Origin: Chitinophagaceae bacterium
Lineage (GTDB): Bacteria; Bacteroidota; Bacteroidia; Chitinophagales; Chitinophagaceae
Length of the DNA stretch: 62,654 nt
NCBI GenBank assembly: GCA_004173355.1
Contig: SEAD01000012.1
Coordinates: forward strand, 1-62,654
Direction: 5' to 3'
Positions 1,893-47,475 of the stretch are shown here, in pieces. The notes beneath the pieces were generated by a model. The model had not been told where the DNA came from. It searched no databases and was given only the letters and a program-made list of their open reading frames with translations. Every line of letters starts with the position of its first letter. The stretch's first letter is position 1. Position numbers and translations under genes: made by a program.

Positions 1893-1908
1893 CTTCATTT
1901 TTAACCTG

Positions 1909-1979
1909 TTGACCCATAAGGATTCGAACCTTAAATGACTGAACCAAAATCAGTAGTGTTACCATTACACCATGGGTCA
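1909..1979 (-). tRNA. tRNA-Gln (anticodon TTG)
   Basis: A complete cloverleaf on the minus strand. The acceptor TGACCCA (1979-1973) pairs with TGGGTCA (1916-1910) and the discriminator is A. The anticodon stem ACTGA/TCAGT encloses loop TTTTGGT with anticodon TTG. The T-arm GGTTCGAATCC is canonical. No CCA is encoded. It lies 69 nt downstream of cphA on the same strand, with its own possible promoter and terminator. Confidence 0.95.
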
Positions 1980-2048: not shown

Positions 2049-4679
2049 TCAGGAAACCGGGGTTTTATCTTCGCGTTCCTTTAGTTCCCTGATTTTGTCG
2101 ATTGCACCCGCAACCACATCACACATAATGACATAGAGCGCACCCTGCACCGGATTTGCATAGATATATTCCAGTGCTTCGTTCTCGTTCGGGATCACCC
2201 GGGTTGGATGGTTCGGGTCCACATCACTGATCCCCGCATGCAGCAGGCCAATGATTTCCTCGGCCGTCCGCCCGCGGAGGTTTTTATCGCACCGGATGAT
2301 GATTTCGTCAAAATGTTTCGCGGAAATGCTTCCGAGTGCCCGGATATCCTCATCCCGCCGGTCGCCGGTACCGGAAATGATCCCGATTTTCCGGGTGTAC
2401 TCAAGCTTGTCGACAAACTCACCGAGCAAACGCAATCCATGGGGATTGTGCGCAAAATCGGCGAGCATGGTATAATTCCTGAACTGGAAAAAATTCAGCC
2501 GTCCCGGTGTCTGTGCCGAAGAAGGGATAAATGAATTCAGGCTCGACCGGATATCCTCGATCGAAATATCCCTGAACAAATAGGTGGCAAGCACGGCCGG
2601 AAGGCAGTTCTGCACATTATGGATTGCCTTGCCTTCGTATGTCAGCGGGATATCCTTCACCGGAAGTACCCTGATTTTCCAGGTTCCTTTCATGATACTG
2701 ATATAGCCATTCTCAAATACGGTCGCCAGGCCACCCCTTGCACAGTGCCTCTTGATCCGCGGATTGTTTTCATCCATTGAAAACAACGCCACATTACAGG
2801 TCAGGCCCTCGCGCATGCCATAGACGAGGTCGTCATCAGCATTGAGTATTGCATATCCATGGGGAAATACCGTTTCGGGTAATACGGCTTTTACTTTGGC
2901 CATCTGCTCTACGGTGTTGATGCCACCAAGACCCATATGGTCCGCGGCCACATTGGTGACAATCGCCACATCACAATGCTGGAAAGACAATCCGTTTTTC
3001 AGGATCCCGCCTCGTGCACACTCCAGTACGGCAAACTCAACAGTGGGATCTTTTAATACAAAGGCCGAACTCACCGGACCGGTGCAATCGCCTTTCATCA
3101 TCATCTGGTTCTGGATATATACCCCGTCGGAAGTGGTATAACCTACTTTTTTTCCCGCACTCTTTACAATATGCGCCGTGAGGCGGGTAGTGGTGGTTTT
3201 CCCATTGGTGCCGGTGATGGCAATGATCGGGATCCTTCCATTACTCCCCTTTGGGAAAAGCATATCCACCACGGGCTCGGCCACGTTTCGCGGCAGGCCC
3301 TCTGATGGTTCAATATGCATCCGGAAGCCGGGTGCTGCATTGACTTCAAGGATCGCACCGCCATTTTCGGATACGGGTGTGCGCAGGTCCATGGCCATAA
3401 TATCGATGCCACAGATATCGAGACCGATGATCTTCGCGATGCGCTCGCACATCACAATATTGGCGGGATGTATTTCGTCCGATACATCGGTGGAAGTACC
3501 ACCGGTTGAAAGGTTGGCAGTTGGTTTCACCGCAACAAACTCGCCTTTCGCTGGTACGGTCTCCAGCGTATATCCTTTTTCCGCCAGGATTTTTTCAGTA
3601 AAACCGTCCACCTTGATCTGCGTAAGTACTTTCTCATGCCCGAAGCCACGGCGTGAATCCTTGTTTACCTCATCGATCAGCCACTGGATCGTATGTTTGC
3701 CGTCACCGATGACTGAAGCCGGTGTGCGGAGCGCGGCACAGATAAATTTATAATTGATCACCAGTACGCGGAAGTCGAACCCGGTGATATATTTCTCCAC
3801 GATCGAACTCCGTCCATACAGCTGTGCTGCAGCCAGTGCCTTGGTGGCCTGTTCCCAGGTGGTGATATTGGTGGTATTCCCCTTTCCATGGTTGCCATCG
3901 ATTGGTTTTATCACCAGCGGGTAGCCATACGTATCCACGGCTTCCCGCAGTCCCTCTTCGGTACGGATCACCATGCCTTTGGGTACCGGGATTTCCGCTG
4001 CGCTCAAAAGGTTTTTTGTTTCTTCCTTATCGCATGCGATGTCCACCGCAATATTCCCGGTAGTGGATGCAATAGTGGCCCGGATCCGTTTCTGGTGCAC
4101 CCCGTAACCCAGCTGGACCAGGCTTTGTTTATTGAGCCGGATAAACGGGATATTCCTTTTAGCGGCTTCATCCACGATACAGCCGGTTGAGGGGCCGAGA
4201 CGGGTATCTTCCCGGATTTCACGCATCTGCTGGATATCGGGTTCGAGGTCGTACGGGGTATTGTCGACCAGCGCCTGTGCGATCCGCACCGAGGCCCTGG
4301 CGGCATACACGCCCGCATCTTCTTCCATATAATCAAACACTACATGGTACACACCATCCCGCTCACCCGTACCGCGTGTGCGGCCAAACCCGCAGTCCAT
4401 CCCCGCAAGCGTCATTATCTCCAAAGCAATATGTTCTATCACATGTCCCATCCAGGTACCCTCGTCCACGCGACTGAAAAACCCGCCAGCCACGCCTTCA
4501 CTGCAGCGATGCGACTGCAGGCTCGGCAGCAGTATTTCGAGTCGTTCCCTGAATCCCGGGATCTTGTTCGTCGGCAGCTGTTCAAGCTCTTCCAGGTCCA
4601 GTTTCATCTGGATCAGTTTGGGTCGCCTGACACTCCAGTAGTTTGGTCCCCTGAGCACTTTGATCTCGAGTATTCGCAT
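2049..4679 (-). CDS. cphA: cyanophycin synthetase
   Basis: Makes multi-L-arginyl-poly-L-aspartate (cyanophycin), a nitrogen storage polymer, by alternating ATP-dependent addition of Asp to the backbone and Arg to the Asp side chain. I use ATG at 4679 because it begins the family N-terminus MRILEIKVLRGPNYWS; the longer frame to 4718 adds 13 atypical residues. This gives 876 residues, the usual CphA length. The order is an N-terminal CphA domain (1 to about 160), an ATP-grasp domain (about 210-475, with KPIDGNHGKG and a metal-site-like EVNAAPG), then a Mur-ligase domain with P-loop ITGTNGKTTTT near 489-498. Divergent from a permease, with cyanophycinase 1.8 kb beyond. A dipeptide-using CphA2 is less likely because both ATP-binding halves look intact. 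Confidence 0.95.
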   Translation of the reverse strand: MRILEIKVLRGPNYWSVRRPKLIQMKLDLEELEQLPTNKIPGFRERLEILLPSLQSHRCSEGVAGGFFSRVDEGTWMGHVIEHIALEIMTLAGMDCGFGRTRGTGERDGVYHVVFDYMEEDAGVYAARASVRIAQALVDNTPYDLEPDIQQMREIREDTRLGPSTGCIVDEAAKRNIPFIRLNKQSLVQLGYGVHQKRIRATIASTTGNIAVDIACDKEETKNLLSAAEIPVPKGMVIRTEEGLREAVDTYGYPLVIKPIDGNHGKGNTTNITTWEQATKALAAAQLYGRSSIVEKYITGFDFRVLVINYKFICAALRTPASVIGDGKHTIQWLIDEVNKDSRRGFGHEKVLTQIKVDGFTEKILAEKGYTLETVPAKGEFVAVKPTANLSTGGTSTDVSDEIHPANIVMCERIAKIIGLDICGIDIMAMDLRTPVSENGGAILEVNAAPGFRMHIEPSEGLPRNVAEPVVDMLFPKGSNGRIPIIAITGTNGKTTTTRLTAHIVKSAGKKVGYTTSDGVYIQNQMMMKGDCTGPVSSAFVLKDPTVEFAVLECARGGILKNGLSFQHCDVAIVTNVAADHMGLGGINTVEQMAKVKAVLPETVFPHGYAILNADDDLVYGMREGLTCNVALFSMDENNPRIKRHCARGGLATVFENGYISIMKGTWKIRVLPVKDIPLTYEGKAIHNVQNCLPAVLATYLFRDISIEDIRSSLNSFIPSSAQTPGRLNFFQFRNYTMLADFAHNPHGLRLLGEFVDKLEYTRKIGIISGTGDRRDEDIRALGSISAKHFDEIIIRCDKNLRGRTAEEIIGLLHAGISDVDPNHPTRVIPNENEALEYIYANPVQGALYVIMCDVVAGAIDKIRELKEREDKTPVS

Positions 4680-4752
4680 GATGGATTGTTTTTCGGAAGT
4701 TAAACGATTTTGCATCACGCTCCAATAAGCAGGGGTATATTACACTGTCCTG

Positions 4753-4778
4753 CCGGAAAGCAGCGCAACATTTTCCGG
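4753..4778. promoter_or_regulatory. inverted repeat in the cphA/permease divergent region
   Basis: CCGGAAA (4753-4759) and TTTCCGG (4772-4778) are perfect inverted arms with a 12-nt gap, inside the 110-nt region between the divergent cphA and permease starts. This is a possible operator; no regulator is identifiable. Confidence 0.25.
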
Positions 4779-4789
4779 TACATGCTGTT

Positions 4790-6175
4790 GTGGCAGGCAG
4801 ACTGATTAATTCCTTTTTTTTGAACCAGCCAGACACCAACCGCAAAATCACACTGCTCCAGGCCACCGCCATCAACATGATTGATATGGTTGGCATCGGC
4901 CCCTTCGTCGTCATCCCTTTCGTGGTCAGCCAGTTCAGCAACGGACTGTTTCTCTGGGCATGGATATTCGGCGCTTTCGCGGCGCTGGCCGATGGCATGA
5001 TCTGGAGTGAGCTGGGGGCACGATACCCGCTCGCAGGTGGCACCTATAATTTCCACCGTATTGCTTTCGGGGAAAAGGGCGGGAAAATGATGGGGTTCCT
5101 GTTTGTCTGGCAGACCAGCATACAGGCCCCGCTGGTCGTGGCTTCCGGGGCAATCGGTTTTGCACAGTACCTTACCTATCTCGTGGACCTCACGGCCCTG
5201 CAGCAGAAAATGGTGTCGGGCGGACTGGTCATCCTCGTGCTCCTGCTGTTGTACCGGAAAATCGAAACCATCGGTCGTATTTCCGTGGTGCTTGGTACAA
5301 TCGTTATCCTTACCATCTGCTGGATCATCATCGGGGGATTGCTCAACCAGCGGCACAGTGTGCAGTTGCTGCCTGCCACCGGTCAGTCGTTTTCCGCAAC
5401 TGCCTTTATTGCTGCTATCGGGTATGGTTCACTGAAGACCGTGTATTCCTATCTTGGTTATTATAATGTATGCCATCTCGGTGGGGAAATCCGGAAGCCC
5501 GGTATCAATATCCCCCGAAGTATATTTATTTCCATCATTGGCATTGCAATCCTTTACCTGCTGATGAACTACAGTATCATGGGCGTGATTCGCTGGCAGA
5601 CAGTCAGGGCCAATGACAAATACCTGGTGAGTTCATTTATGGAAATCGTGTATGGAGGCAGGGCCGCGGTAGTGGTGACGGTGCTGATCCTGCTCATCGC
5701 CCTTTCCTCTTTGTTCGCCGTGGTACTGGGTTATTCGCGGGTACCGTATGCGGCTGCACTGGATGGAAATTTTTTTCCGGTGTTCAGCAAACTGCATCCA
5801 ACCAAAAACTTTCCCTATGTATCGCTGCTGGTATTATGTGCCACGGGATTTGTGTTCAGTCTTTTTATGCGGCTGGGTGATGTGATCACGGCGATCCTGG
5901 CGATGCGGATCCTGGTGCAGTTTATCGGGCAGGCGGCCGGGGTAGTGTTGTTGCGCCGCCGGTTTGGCACAGGGGACCTTCCCTTCCGGATGTGGCTTTA
6001 TCCGCTGCCGGTAATTGTATCACTGGCGATCTGGATTTTCCTGTTTTGTTCAACAGGATGGTTTGCCTTTTACGGACTGGGGATTGCGGCCACCGGTGTA
6101 CTGGTATACCTGCTGCTCAATCGCGGAGTTATTCCTTTTTGGTCCTCGATTTCAGGAAGTAAAAAAACGCAATGA
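4790..6175 (+). CDS. amino acid permease (APC superfamily)
   Basis: A polytopic inner-membrane protein of up to 461 residues with about twelve hydrophobic segments. The first segment carries the APC-type motif TAINMIDMVGIGPFVVIPF. The family catalyses proton- or sodium-coupled uptake or exchange of amino acids. The start is uncertain: no ATG precedes the first helix, so GTG at 4790 or TTG at 4823 (giving MNQPDTNRKITLLQ) are the options. It is divergent from cphA and upstream of cphB, which suggests supply or export of Asp, Arg or a cyanophycin breakdown product, but this substrate is only an inference. Its last 47 nt overlap a small membrane-protein gene on the other strand. Confidence 0.85.
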   Translation: MAGRLINSFFLNQPDTNRKITLLQATAINMIDMVGIGPFVVIPFVVSQFSNGLFLWAWIFGAFAALADGMIWSELGARYPLAGGTYNFHRIAFGEKGGKMMGFLFVWQTSIQAPLVVASGAIGFAQYLTYLVDLTALQQKMVSGGLVILVLLLLYRKIETIGRISVVLGTIVILTICWIIIGGLLNQRHSVQLLPATGQSFSATAFIAAIGYGSLKTVYSYLGYYNVCHLGGEIRKPGINIPRSIFISIIGIAILYLLMNYSIMGVIRWQTVRANDKYLVSSFMEIVYGGRAAVVVTVLILLIALSSLFAVVLGYSRVPYAAALDGNFFPVFSKLHPTKNFPYVSLLVLCATGFVFSLFMRLGDVITAILAMRILVQFIGQAAGVVLLRRRFGTGDLPFRMWLYPLPVIVSLAIWIFLFCSTGWFAFYGLGIAATGVLVYLLLNRGVIPFWSSISGSKKTQ

Positions 6176-6338
6176 CATGCAGTGTAAAAAAGAAAAGCAA
6201 GAGCAGCAGTAACGAAACAAAACCGGCGAACAGGATCCAGCTGTCAGTGAGATCGTACCGGAGGATCCAGGTGAGCAGGTAGGTGGTGAGCAGCGCATGC
6301 AGTAAAAGAGCGAAAACGCGGCGGAAAAGTCTGCCCAT
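6129..6338 (-). CDS. small two-helix membrane protein (69 aa)
   Basis: A 69-residue frame with ATG at 6338. It has a basic N-terminus (MGRLFRRVF), two long hydrophobic stretches (about 9-25 and 37-61) and a basic C-terminus (LKSRTKKE). This balanced layout is typical of a real small membrane protein rather than a shadow ORF, and most of the frame (6176-6338) lies outside any other gene. Its 3' end overlaps the permease 3' end in convergent orientation. I do not recognise a family. Its place between the permease and cyanophycinase makes a link to the polymer locus possible but unproven. Confidence 0.55.
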   Translation of the reverse strand: MGRLFRRVFALLLHALLTTYLLTWILRYDLTDSWILFAGFVSLLLLLLFFFTLHVIAFFYFLKSRTKKE

Positions 6339-6470
6339 TCGATGGAGTATTGTTTAGTTTCCCAAATGTATCGGTTTTCACGGTCCCGCCAATCCCACAA
6401 ACAGGGGGTTTTCTTTCTCCACATATCCACATCCCAAGTCCATAAAGCTCGCAGGCTCTTATATTTCCAT

Positions 6471-6478
6471 TAAATTTG
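6471..6478 (+). promoter_or_regulatory. -7 promoter element of cphB
   Basis: TAAATTTG, an exact match to the Bacteroidota -7 motif TAnnTTTG, ends 21 nt before the cphB ATG. This predicts a short leader of roughly 15 nt. Confidence 0.6.
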
Positions 6479-6499
6479 GGGCTGACCAAACCCCTTTGA

Positions 6500-7393
6500 A
6501 TGGACCATCCAAAAGGTAAGCTGATCGCCGTTGGCGGCGCAGAAGATAAAGGCACAAACCTGGAGACCGGAGATATTTTCAGAAATAACCTCAACTTTTT
6601 TGAGCTCGGCATCCTTCGCCGGGTTGTGGAAGAGGCCGGCGGTCCTTCCGCGCGGATCGAAATCATTACCACCGCCTCCACCATTCCATATGAAGTGGGT
6701 GAAAATTACCTGGATGCATTTGGAAAAATTTCCTGTACCAATGTAGGGGTAATGCATATCCGCAACCGGCAGGACACCCAGAACCCGGATTTCCTGGAAC
6801 GGATCCGCAGTTGTGATGCGGTAATGTTCAGTGGCGGCAACCAGCTGCGGCTGAGTGCAACCGATGGTGGTACCGAGTTCCTGCGGATCATGAAACGCCG
6901 TTACCTTGAAGAAAATTTCCTGATCGCCGGTACCAGTGCAGGAGCCATGGCTATGAGTAATACCATGATCTATGAAGGCAATGCCACTCGTGCCCACCTG
7001 AAAGGCGAAGTAAAAATCACTACGGGTCTTGGTTTTATCAATACCCTGATCATCGACTCCCATTTTGAAAAACGCGGACGGTTTGGCCGGCTTGCGCAGG
7101 CGGTAGCCACCAACCCGAGCTGTATCGGTATCGGGCTGGGGGAGGATACCGGGATGCTGATCACGGAAGGCAACAAGATGGAGGCGATCGGAAGCGGGCT
7201 GGTGGTGATCATCGACGGGCATGATATACTGCATTCCAATATCGCCGATATCCCGGATGGCAATCCGGTGAGTATCGAAAACCTGAAAGTCCACTTCTGC
7301 GAAAAAGGGAACGGTTACCTGATCCGCGAACGGCAGTTCCTCCCCGAAGCCGTGGATGGGGCAGTCATCAAAAAACAGGTGAGTGTGGAATAG
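6500..7393 (+). CDS. cphB: cyanophycinase
   Basis: A serine exopeptidase of family S51 that degrades cyanophycin to beta-Asp-Arg dipeptides in the cytosol. It has 297 residues, normal for the family, and no signal peptide. The nucleophile is Ser146 in the elbow GTSAGAM. His188 (DSHFEKRGRFGRL) and Glu215 (GLGEDTG) occupy the other expected active-site positions. SGGNQLRL near 111-118 is also characteristic. An exact -7 promoter motif lies just upstream, so it is probably transcribed separately from the permease. The dipeptide product needs an isoaspartyl dipeptidase; a candidate is encoded at 46534-47475. Confidence 0.95.
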   Translation: MDHPKGKLIAVGGAEDKGTNLETGDIFRNNLNFFELGILRRVVEEAGGPSARIEIITTASTIPYEVGENYLDAFGKISCTNVGVMHIRNRQDTQNPDFLERIRSCDAVMFSGGNQLRLSATDGGTEFLRIMKRRYLEENFLIAGTSAGAMAMSNTMIYEGNATRAHLKGEVKITTGLGFINTLIIDSHFEKRGRFGRLAQAVATNPSCIGIGLGEDTGMLITEGNKMEAIGSGLVVIIDGHDILHSNIADIPDGNPVSIENLKVHFCEKGNGYLIRERQFLPEAVDGAVIKKQVSVE

Positions 7394-41034: not shown

Positions 41035-42465
41035 ATGACGGAACAGACTTCATTCAAACGCTCCCTTGGCCTGCTTGATGCCACCATGATCGTGGCCGGC
41101 TCAATGATCGGTTCGGGGATCTTCATTGTAAGCTCGGATATCGTGCAGAATGTGGGCAGCGCGGGCTGGCTCATTGCGGTATGGGTTATCACCGCATTCA
41201 TGACCATCAGCGCAGCAGTATCTTACGGGGAGCTGAGCAGTATGTACCCCAAAGCCGGCGGCCAGTATGTGTACCTGAAAGAAGCCTACAATCCATTGAT
41301 GGGTTTCCTGTATGGCTGGAGTTTTTTCGCCGTTATCCAGACCGCTACAATCGCGGCAGTAGGTGTGGCATTTGCCCGGTACACGGCTTACCTGGTCCCG
41401 CAGTTCAGTGAAACAAATATCATCGCAGACCTCGGGTTTGTAAAAATATCCGCAGCACAGATCCTGGCAATAGGTACCATCGTGATCCTGACCTACACCA
41501 ATACCCGTGGTGTGAAGGAAGGGAAATTTATCCAGACATTGTTTACTTCAGTCAAACTGGTATCACTGTTTGGCCTGATCTTCCTAGGGTTCCTGCTGGT
41601 AAAAGATTCGTTCTGGGGTGCAAACTGGCAGGATGCATGGACTTCCGTCAGCGTGAAGGATACGGATGGTAAAATAACTGACCCGCATGTATGGCGGTCG
41701 ATCGGCGGTGCCGCATTGGTAGGCGCGATAGCCACTTCCATGGTGGGTTCCATTTTCAGCAGTGATGCATGGAACAACGTCACGTTTATTGCAGGCGAAG
41801 TCAAAAATCCGCAGCGGAATATCGGACTCAGCCTCTTCCTTGGTACCCTCGTGGTTTCCATTATTTATATCTCGGCCAACCTGATGTACCTCTACGTGAT
41901 GCCGATCCAGTCCATCGCATTCCCGGCCGGCAACCGCGTGGCTGTGGCGGCATCGGATGCCATTTTCGGCGCCGCCGGTTCAACCGTCATTGCCGTGATG
42001 ATCATGATTTCCACTTTTGGATGCAATAACGGTCTGATCCTCGCCGGGTCAAGGGTATATTATACCATGGCCAATGATGGACTGTTTTTCAAACAGGCAG
42101 GTAAACTGAATAAAAATGCAGTACCACAATGGGCACTCTGGGCGCAGGCGGTGGTGGCATCCCTGCTTTGCCTGAGCGGTGGATACAATGAACTGCTGAC
42201 CATGATTTCCTTTGTGGTAGTTATATTTTATATCCTTACGATCATCGGGATTTTTATCCTCCGGAAAAAACGTCCGGATTTTGAACGGCCCTACAAAGCT
42301 TTTGGCTACCCTGTACTGCCCATCATTTATATCCTGCTGGGGGCAACCTTCTGTATCTTCCTTGCCCGCTTCGAAACCAAGTATACTATGTGGGGCCTGG
42401 CCATTGTGCTGGCAGGTGTGCCACTTTATTACGTAGCTATTTCACAGAAAAAAACACAACCGTAA
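41035..42465 (+). CDS. amino acid permease (APC superfamily, LAT-like)
   Basis: A 476-residue inner-membrane transporter with about twelve hydrophobic segments. Helix 1 has the APC substrate motif MIVAGSMIGSGIFIVSSDI, and YPKAGGQYVYLKEAYNPLMGF follows helix 2. This pattern matches the L-type/cationic (SLC7-like) branch, which moves neutral or basic amino acids. It is only distantly like the permease at 4790-6175. It follows a terminator, so it is separately transcribed; a weak TATCTTG (41008-41014) may be its -7 element. Exact substrate unknown. Confidence 0.9.
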   Translation: MTEQTSFKRSLGLLDATMIVAGSMIGSGIFIVSSDIVQNVGSAGWLIAVWVITAFMTISAAVSYGELSSMYPKAGGQYVYLKEAYNPLMGFLYGWSFFAVIQTATIAAVGVAFARYTAYLVPQFSETNIIADLGFVKISAAQILAIGTIVILTYTNTRGVKEGKFIQTLFTSVKLVSLFGLIFLGFLLVKDSFWGANWQDAWTSVSVKDTDGKITDPHVWRSIGGAALVGAIATSMVGSIFSSDAWNNVTFIAGEVKNPQRNIGLSLFLGTLVVSIIYISANLMYLYVMPIQSIAFPAGNRVAVAASDAIFGAAGSTVIAVMIMISTFGCNNGLILAGSRVYYTMANDGLFFKQAGKLNKNAVPQWALWAQAVVASLLCLSGGYNELLTMISFVVVIFYILTIIGIFILRKKRPDFERPYKAFGYPVLPIIYILLGATFCIFLARFETKYTMWGLAIVLAGVPLYYVAISQKKTQP

Positions 42466-46533: not shown

Positions 46534-47475
46534 ATGGCAATCATCTCATTAGCTATCCATGGAGGGGCAGGAACGATCCTGAAAACAGATATGACCGATG
46601 AAAAGGAATCGGCTTACCGCATGGGGCTGCAGGCGGCACTTGATGCAGGGTATGCAGTATTGGAGAAAGGCGGTGAAGCAATCGATGCCGTGGTGGCGGC
46701 CGTTGTGGAGCTGGAAAACAATATCCTTTTCAATGCCGGGAGGGGATCCGTTTTCGCCAGTGATGGCGGGCATGAAATGGATGCTTCGCTGATGCAGGGC
46801 AGGGACCTCGCGGCGGGTGCTGTCAGTGCCGTAAAGAACATCCGGAATCCGATACTCCTGGCAAAGCAGGTAATGACGGCAAGCGAACATGTCATGCTGA
46901 GCGGCAAGGGCGCCAATGATTTTGCCGCTGCACAGGGTTTTGACAAAGAACCGGATGAATACTTTTATTCCGCATTCCGTCACGAACAATGGAAGGCGGT
47001 GCAGGGCAGTGATAAAACCATGCTGGACCATAATCCGCTGGTAAAGGATAAAAAATTCGGGACGGTGGGTGCGGTAGCCTGTGATGCCAATGGGCATATT
47101 GCCGCGGCTACGAGTACGGGTGGTATGACCAACAAACAATACGGCCGCGTGGGCGATAGCCCGATAATCGGCGCAGGTACTTATGCGAACGATGGCACCT
47201 GTGCGATCAGCTGTACCGGGCATGGTGAATTATTTATCCGCGCCGTGGCAGCCTATGATGTGAGCTGCCTGATGGAATACAAGGGGCTGAGCCTCCGGGA
47301 GGCCATGGATATCGTGGTGCATGACCGTCTTGTTAAAATCAAGGGAGAGGGGGGTATGATCGGGGTGGATGCCAAAGGGAATGCGGCCCTGCTGTTTAAC
47401 AGCGATGGCATGTACCGCGGGTTGAAAACAAGTGCCGGTGCTGATTTTACCGCTATTTACAAAGATGAATACTGA
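46534..47475 (+). CDS. isoaspartyl peptidase/L-asparaginase (Ntn-hydrolase, T2 family)
   Basis: A 313-residue plant-type asparaginase that cleaves beta-aspartyl dipeptides and sometimes asparagine. The precursor is expected to cut itself between Gly176 and Thr177 (KKFGTVGAVA), freeing Thr177 as the nucleophile. The N-terminal LAIHGGAG, the oxyanion/substrate motif TSTGGMTNKQYGRVGDSPIIGAG and TGHGE are all intact. No signal peptide, so it is cytosolic. In cyanophycin-using bacteria related enzymes split the beta-Asp-Arg product of cyanophycinase; cphA and cphB lie 39-42 kb away in this window. Clean-up of damaged proteins is the alternative role. Confidence 0.93.
   Translation: MAIISLAIHGGAGTILKTDMTDEKESAYRMGLQAALDAGYAVLEKGGEAIDAVVAAVVELENNILFNAGRGSVFASDGGHEMDASLMQGRDLAAGAVSAVKNIRNPILLAKQVMTASEHVMLSGKGANDFAAAQGFDKEPDEYFYSAFRHEQWKAVQGSDKTMLDHNPLVKDKKFGTVGAVACDANGHIAAATSTGGMTNKQYGRVGDSPIIGAGTYANDGTCAISCTGHGELFIRAVAAYDVSCLMEYKGLSLREAMDIVVHDRLVKIKGEGGMIGVDAKGNAALLFNSDGMYRGLKTSAGADFTAIYKDEY

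Follow-up and report, generated by a model that had tools for sequence, protein, structure and literature searches.

The stretch analysed here, referred to as the window, comprises the 62,654 nucleotides of contig SEAD01000012.1 (assembly GCA_004173355.1), which is contig 323 of a Chitinophagaceae genome of 5.36 Mb in 372 contigs. Between positions 2,049 and 7,393 it carries the gene for a synthetase of the Asp-Arg polymer cyanophycin (cphA) and the gene for a cyanophycinase (cphB), with an amino-acid permease gene between the two; a gene for an IaaA-type enzyme lies farther along the window.

cphA occupies positions 2049..4679 on the minus strand and encodes 876 amino acids. The protein scores 1228.7 bits against the TIGR02068 cyanophycin synthetase profile (cut-off 850), contains the N-terminal PF18921 domain followed by the ATP-grasp and Mur-ligase domains, and has PDB entry 7lg5 as its best structural match (E 3.9e-282, query residues 14-877). 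The sequence of 7lg5 is identical to that of 7lgj, which is SuCphA1 according to PMC9427784. The open frame extends over 2049-4718, with a GTG at 4718 as the furthest readable start; because query residue 14 pairs with residue 1 of the 7lg5 chain, the true start is most likely the ATG at 4679. Through the 7lg5 alignment we mapped 22 residues named in the SuCphA1 and TeCphA1 papers (PMC9262961, PMC9427784), many but not all of which were mutated there, and 20 of them, including the primer site of the N domain, are identical in the window protein. Seven of eight are identical in the ATP-grasp (G) site (E215, H267, R309, R323, N394, S396, D431 and R458; the mapping of this site assumes that the Su and Te numbering agree), with Asp at E215; seven of eight in the Mur-ligase (M) site (K499, T500, T522, E558, D585, H586, R731 and H748), with Ser at T522; and all six in the N domain. 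The window protein is thus like SuCphA1 (PDB 7lg5/7lgj/7lgq) and TeCphA1 (PMC9427784) in its three domains and all three active sites, but differs from both in the Asp at E215 and the Ser at T522. Both replacements are conservative and are the majority states among 59 CphA proteins, the window's included (E215D in 41, T522S in 40). An E215A exchange cost TeCphA1 most of its activity and left SuCphA1 with nearly half (PMC9427784). The N-domain motif Cx19HxxEH (C59, H79, E82, H83), which makes primers and is absent from CphA2 (PMC9262961), is kept in all 59 proteins; the presence of this motif classifies the window protein, by its sequence, as CphA1 and probably primer-independent.

cphB (6500..7393, plus strand) encodes 297 amino acids and scores 217.8 bits against TIGR02069 (cut-off 126.6), with a PDB match to 7uqv (E 5.6e-52); the family scores of both CphA and CphB are far beyond chance. 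Like the cyanophycinases 7uqv and 3en0, the latter of which we take to be Synechocystis CphB, the protein has the Ser-His-Glu triad and the Gln, Asp and three Arg of the pocket, but it differs from them in carrying Ser at the pocket Gln (Gln173, Synechocystis numbering). The triad consists of Ser146, His188 and Glu215; Gln101, Asp172, Arg178, Arg180 and Arg183, which PMC3235067 lists for the pocket, correspond to Q115, D186, R192, R194 and R197 of the window protein. By inspection, no signal peptide was seen at the N-terminus. A preliminary description of this DNA had called both enzymes intact, naming the ATP-grasp and Mur-ligase halves of CphA and the CphB triad, and had proposed an alignment at both ATP sites as a check; the residues given above bear it out on both enzymes and extend the agreement to the primer site.

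The pair was followed through 147 Chitinophagaceae genomes (the family sample), 296 Bacteroidota genomes (the phylum sample) and a pattern scan of named genomes, from which the best 80 of at least 593 stretches were taken as named loci, partly in the same genomes as the two samples. Within the family, CphA was scored as present on strong matches (399.7 bits and up, with fragments at contig ends included and weak Mur-ligase matches excluded) and CphB at 200 bits or more, so that G046, with a 93-bit fragment, counts as lacking it. On this basis CphA is found in 61 of the 147 genomes, and CphB co-occurs with it, in 58 of the 61 genomes with CphA against 2 of the 86 without. The comparison of gene order across Chitinophagaceae, also proposed with the preliminary description, covered 60 cphA stretches from 59 genomes besides the source genome (G089 contributes two, G025 was left out, and several stretches stop at contig ends): 35 of them also carry cphB, 11 the permease and one the small hydrophobic frame described at the end. 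Among the 80 named loci, the best of at least 593 stretches, are Terrimonas (for example the cultured Terrimonas pollutisoli, L162, with both genes), Ferruginibacter, Taibaiella, Kordia, Polaribacter and Psychroserpens; CphB falls inside the fetched flank in 58 of these 80, with the Ser-His-Glu triad in all 58.

Across the phylum, CphA is found at E 1e-100 in 36 of 296 genomes, three of these matches being weak, with 35-36% identity that covers part of the protein. The weak matches, in G321, G369 and G422 (L288, L289 and L290), lie beside a common block of other genes and are probably not CphA1. In two genomes of the phylum sample, G211 and G283 (L283, L284), there is a second CphA that shares 52-53% identity with the window protein, and CphB was not found on those stretches. 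The arrangement itself has been described before: Sharon and Schmeing (2023; PMC10206079) counted CphA1 in 86 Bacteroidota genomes, every one of which (100%) also has cyanophycinase, and found cphA1 clustered with the cyanophycinase gene in 81% of the 658 genomes having both; cyanophycin genes are likewise reported from other Bacteroidota, in Dyadobacter (PMC11573002) and in Flavobacterium psychrophilum, where CphA expression was described (PMC9723704). As in the clusters of PMC10206079, cphA and cphB of the window lie within 5 kb of each other; the window differs from those clusters in the permease between the two genes and in the distance of 39 kb to the IaaA-type gene. Linked cphA and cphB in Bacteroidota are already published; the window locus is real, conserved and ordinary: it adds one genome to a common pattern and corrects an earlier guess about the permease.

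For cyanophycin to be broken down as far as free amino acids, an isoaspartyl dipeptidase is required. The candidate in the window is an Ntn hydrolase of 313 amino acids resembling the IaaA-type isoaspartyl aminopeptidases (46534..47475, plus strand; PF01112, 364.9 bits). Its gene lies outside the interval 2,049-7,393, at a distance of 39 kb, and is not linked to cphB here. Hence the preliminary description of this interval as a complete locus for synthesis and breakdown stands for the intact synthetase and cyanophycinase genes and not for the third enzyme. The best PDB match of the protein is 2zak (E 6.8e-90), which we take to be Escherichia coli IaaA; the two are alike in length and in the GTVG nucleophile motif, with Thr177 as the nucleophile in the window protein, and by inspection no leader was seen on the latter. 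In contrast to E. coli IaaA, the window protein stays below the NCBIfam equivalog cut-off NF007589 (336.2 against 567 bits), so that it is IaaA-type and not the same equivalog. It likely carries out the last step of breakdown, the predicted cleavage of beta-Asp-Arg. Two other PF01112 genes occur in the genome, one for 386 amino acids with a leader (by inspection) and one for 343 amino acids with a Tat-like leader and a differing Thr motif. For IadA, nothing above cut-off was found in the source genome.

Bare presence of PF01112 is uninformative as a marker, the domain occurring in 143 of the 147 family genomes. We counted the longer IaaA of the window's type, defined by at least 58% identity to the window protein, with fragments included and G054 added at 55%; the matches excluded, at 57% or below, are mostly frames with room for a leader. 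So defined, IaaA co-occurs with cphA, in 57 of the 61 family genomes with CphA against 32 of the 86 without. Related genomes within a clade do not give independent observations; by genus the count is 42/43 against 24/57. Among the 80 best named loci, 25 have an IaaA 57-65% identical on the cphA stretch, always together with cphB and at a distance from cphA of roughly 1 to 6 kb.

These results are, with high probability, explained by an ordinary Bacteroidota cphA1-cphB pair, with the IaaA-type enzyme finishing the breakdown and the permease a neighbour by shared gene order. The ATP-grasp site of CphA would add Asp to the growing chain and the Mur-ligase site Arg to the side chain, while the N domain would cut early polymer into primers. 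CphB would cut the stored polymer to beta-Asp-Arg, and the general IaaA-type enzyme (46534-47475) would split this dipeptide to Asp and Arg. Because the ATP sites and primer site of CphA and the triad of CphB are all intact, the best inference, and a sound one, is that the organism can make, store and break down the Asp-Arg polymer; what the data show directly are the genes and their family membership, the kept catalytic residues and the joint occurrence of cphA with cphB and IaaA, whereas we infer that the cell holds the polymer, what the IaaA-type enzyme does there and any regulation.

Several observations weigh against this explanation or parts of it. First, CphB of the window has Ser187 at the position of Gln173, a residue reported as critical in the cyanobacterial enzyme, where the secreted CphE has Thr (PMC3235067). 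Among 50 distinct family stretches matched by CphB, 45 are close (G057 is counted twice), three are distant paralogues that have Gln, and two are truncated; at this site the 45 close stretches have Ser (40) or Thr (5), and the 58 CphB proteins from the best 80 named loci have Ser (43) or Thr (15). Ser187 is accordingly probably not the mark of a different enzyme, a reading rejected because family members as a rule have Ser or Thr and CphE has Thr. Second, in a PF01112 tree of 114 rows (after duplicates and short rows were dropped, and with family rows drawn from among the matches listed), the clade of the window IaaA has no cphB-linked rows and includes rows from genomes without cphA. A grouping of the window IaaA with the cphB-linked IaaA clades is not supported by the tree, and because its clade lacks cphB-linked members and some of the genomes lack cphA, its putative role here is not specific. 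Third, in the sister genome G095, which has cphA, an IaaA of this type was not found in the assembly of about 900 contigs.

The main alternative assigns the permease a function in the locus, either the import of Asp or Arg for synthesis or the movement of breakdown products. The gene, for an amino-acid permease of the APC family (4790..6175, plus strand; PF13520, 129 bits), is present between cphA and cphB and divergent from cphA, as the preliminary description had it, and runs in the same direction as cphB. Transporters are known to accompany cyanophycin scavenging clusters (PMC10206079), and orthologues at 62% identity or more are enriched with cphA (15 of 61 genomes with CphA against 6 of 86 without; Fisher p 0.0037, a descriptive value given the relatedness of the genomes). 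However, this enrichment can be explained by a gene order common to one clade. Of the 60 family stretches with cphA, only 11 include the permease (identity of at least 60%), and of the 80 named loci, the best of at least 593 stretches, 5 do (at least 56%); L164 and L180, the named loci with it between the two genes, are MAGs. Six of the 21 family genomes with an orthologue (21/147, at 62% or more) lack cphA. Its usual partner is a class V aminotransferase gene, which stands in tandem with it in 15 of these 21 genomes, four of the 15 without cphA; a series of genes for the aminotransferase, the permease, a GDSL hydrolase, an alpha/beta hydrolase and TyrS recurs in the window's order, without cphA or cphB, in G130 and G040. 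The permease protein stays below the cut-off of every specific transporter model (TIGR00909, 122 bits against 556.8). On this distribution the permease was rejected as a part of the pathway; it is most likely a bystander, the earlier suggestion that it supplies or recycles Asp or Arg is not upheld, and a function for it in the locus appears unlikely.

The aminotransferase (PF00266, with a Tat-like leader by inspection) adjoins cphA on the cphB side in 11 relatives and was not found in the window's genome at E 1e-60. It was considered as a new cyanophycin component and rejected, as it occurs with the permease in genomes without cphA. The tandem pair of this class V aminotransferase and an APC permease is seen at L299-L302, in genomes with and without cphA.

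It is less probable still that CphA makes a variant polymer, for example one rich in Lys, or that the pair acts on another isopeptide. The departures from the cyanobacterial enzymes (E215D and T522S in CphA, Q173S in CphB) would fit such an activity, but each is a conservative exchange that is frequent among the family's proteins, and the remaining Asp-binding and ATP-site residues compared in CphA are identical. A scavenging locus for cyanophycin made by other organisms, of the kind known with cyanophycinase, dipeptidase and transporter genes (PMC10206079), is highly improbable, given that cphA is intact and no signal peptide was seen on CphB by inspection.

For Firmicutes and Bacteroidota, PMC10206079 describes the isoaspartyl dipeptidases as enzymes that 'remain undiscovered'; it found IadA or IaaA in 22.1% of the Bacteroidota with CphA1. 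Eighteen phylum genomes with an absent or uncertain longer IaaA supplied 20 cphA stretches for comparison, and two of these stretches hold a second cphA copy. cphB is present on 15 of the 20, and 14 of these 15 also encode a short PF01112 protein of 280 residues (281 in one case, 299 in another), whose gene adjoins cphB or, in L281, is next but one to it. In L267, for instance, the short gene occupies 5783-6625 on the minus strand. The short gene was not found on the remaining cphB-bearing stretch (G188, L266), nor on the cphA stretches of G238, G371, G382, G321, G369 and G422. In eight other genomes with CphA that were fetched, the longer IaaA is on the cphA stretch. The short form also occurs in two genomes of the window's own family, G031 and G125; the family mostly has the longer IaaA.

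The 16 short proteins (14 and 2) form one clade on a long branch with 100/100 support, keep the GTVG and SDS motifs, and one of them has 2zak as its best PDB match (E 1.1e-33). All were gathered beside cphB (L265, L267, L269-L274, L276-L278, L280-L282, L087 and L088), so that the exclusivity of the clade rests on a search of the 296 phylum genomes and not on the tree. This search recovered the short protein, at no less than 64% identity, in 19 genomes, after which identity drops to 41% for the following match: 16 of the 36 genomes with CphA have it, against 3 of the 260 without CphA at E 1e-100. In all 16, cphB stands beside the short gene, in G396 away from cphA. The three genomes without CphA are G147, G152 and G161. 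In G152 and G161 the short gene lies beside what, by inspection, are presumably a transporter-like gene and an RpiR-like regulator gene; G152 has a weak CphB-like match about 6 kb from the short gene, no CphB-like match was found on the 12 kb stretch of G161, and in G147 a leader-bearing CphB-like gene adjoins the short gene. These three loci (L304, L305 and L306), from one family without cphA, are perhaps scavenging clusters.

With the three weak CphA matches set aside, 28 of the 33 phylum genomes with CphA have either the short gene (16) or the longer IaaA (12, of which 8 are near cphA and 4 lie elsewhere, these with at least 58% identity to the window protein); neither form was found by these criteria in G188, G215, G238, G371 and G382. 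The adjacency to cphB and the near-confinement to genomes with cphA suggest that the short clade may be a cyanophycin-dedicated beta-Asp-Arg dipeptidase, among the enzymes that the 2023 survey called undiscovered in Bacteroidota, a proposal for which we see the chances as evenly balanced. The queries of that survey, one of them from Pedobacter, may already touch this clade. No description of it was found in the titles and abstract openings of ten papers since 2021 on isoaspartyl and cyanophycin, among them PMC10206079, PMC10687191, PMC12661447 and PMC11573002. The comparison turns a stated gap in the dipeptidases of Bacteroidota into a testable question.

Among the minor features of the window, the small membrane protein of the preliminary description exists as a hydrophobic frame of 69 codons (6129..6338, minus strand), which overlaps the 3' end of the permease gene by 47 bases; it is weak as a gene, its single recurrence among the 60 relatives' stretches is in the sister genome, and its significance is doubtful. 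A second permease gene of the APC amino-acid family lies at 41035-42465, about 4 kb before the IaaA-type gene. Directly downstream of cphA is a tRNA-Gln (ttg) gene (1908..1979, minus strand), a neighbour outside the cyanophycin system; nine close relatives were checked, and each of them likewise has a tRNA-Gln (ttg) on its cphA stretch.

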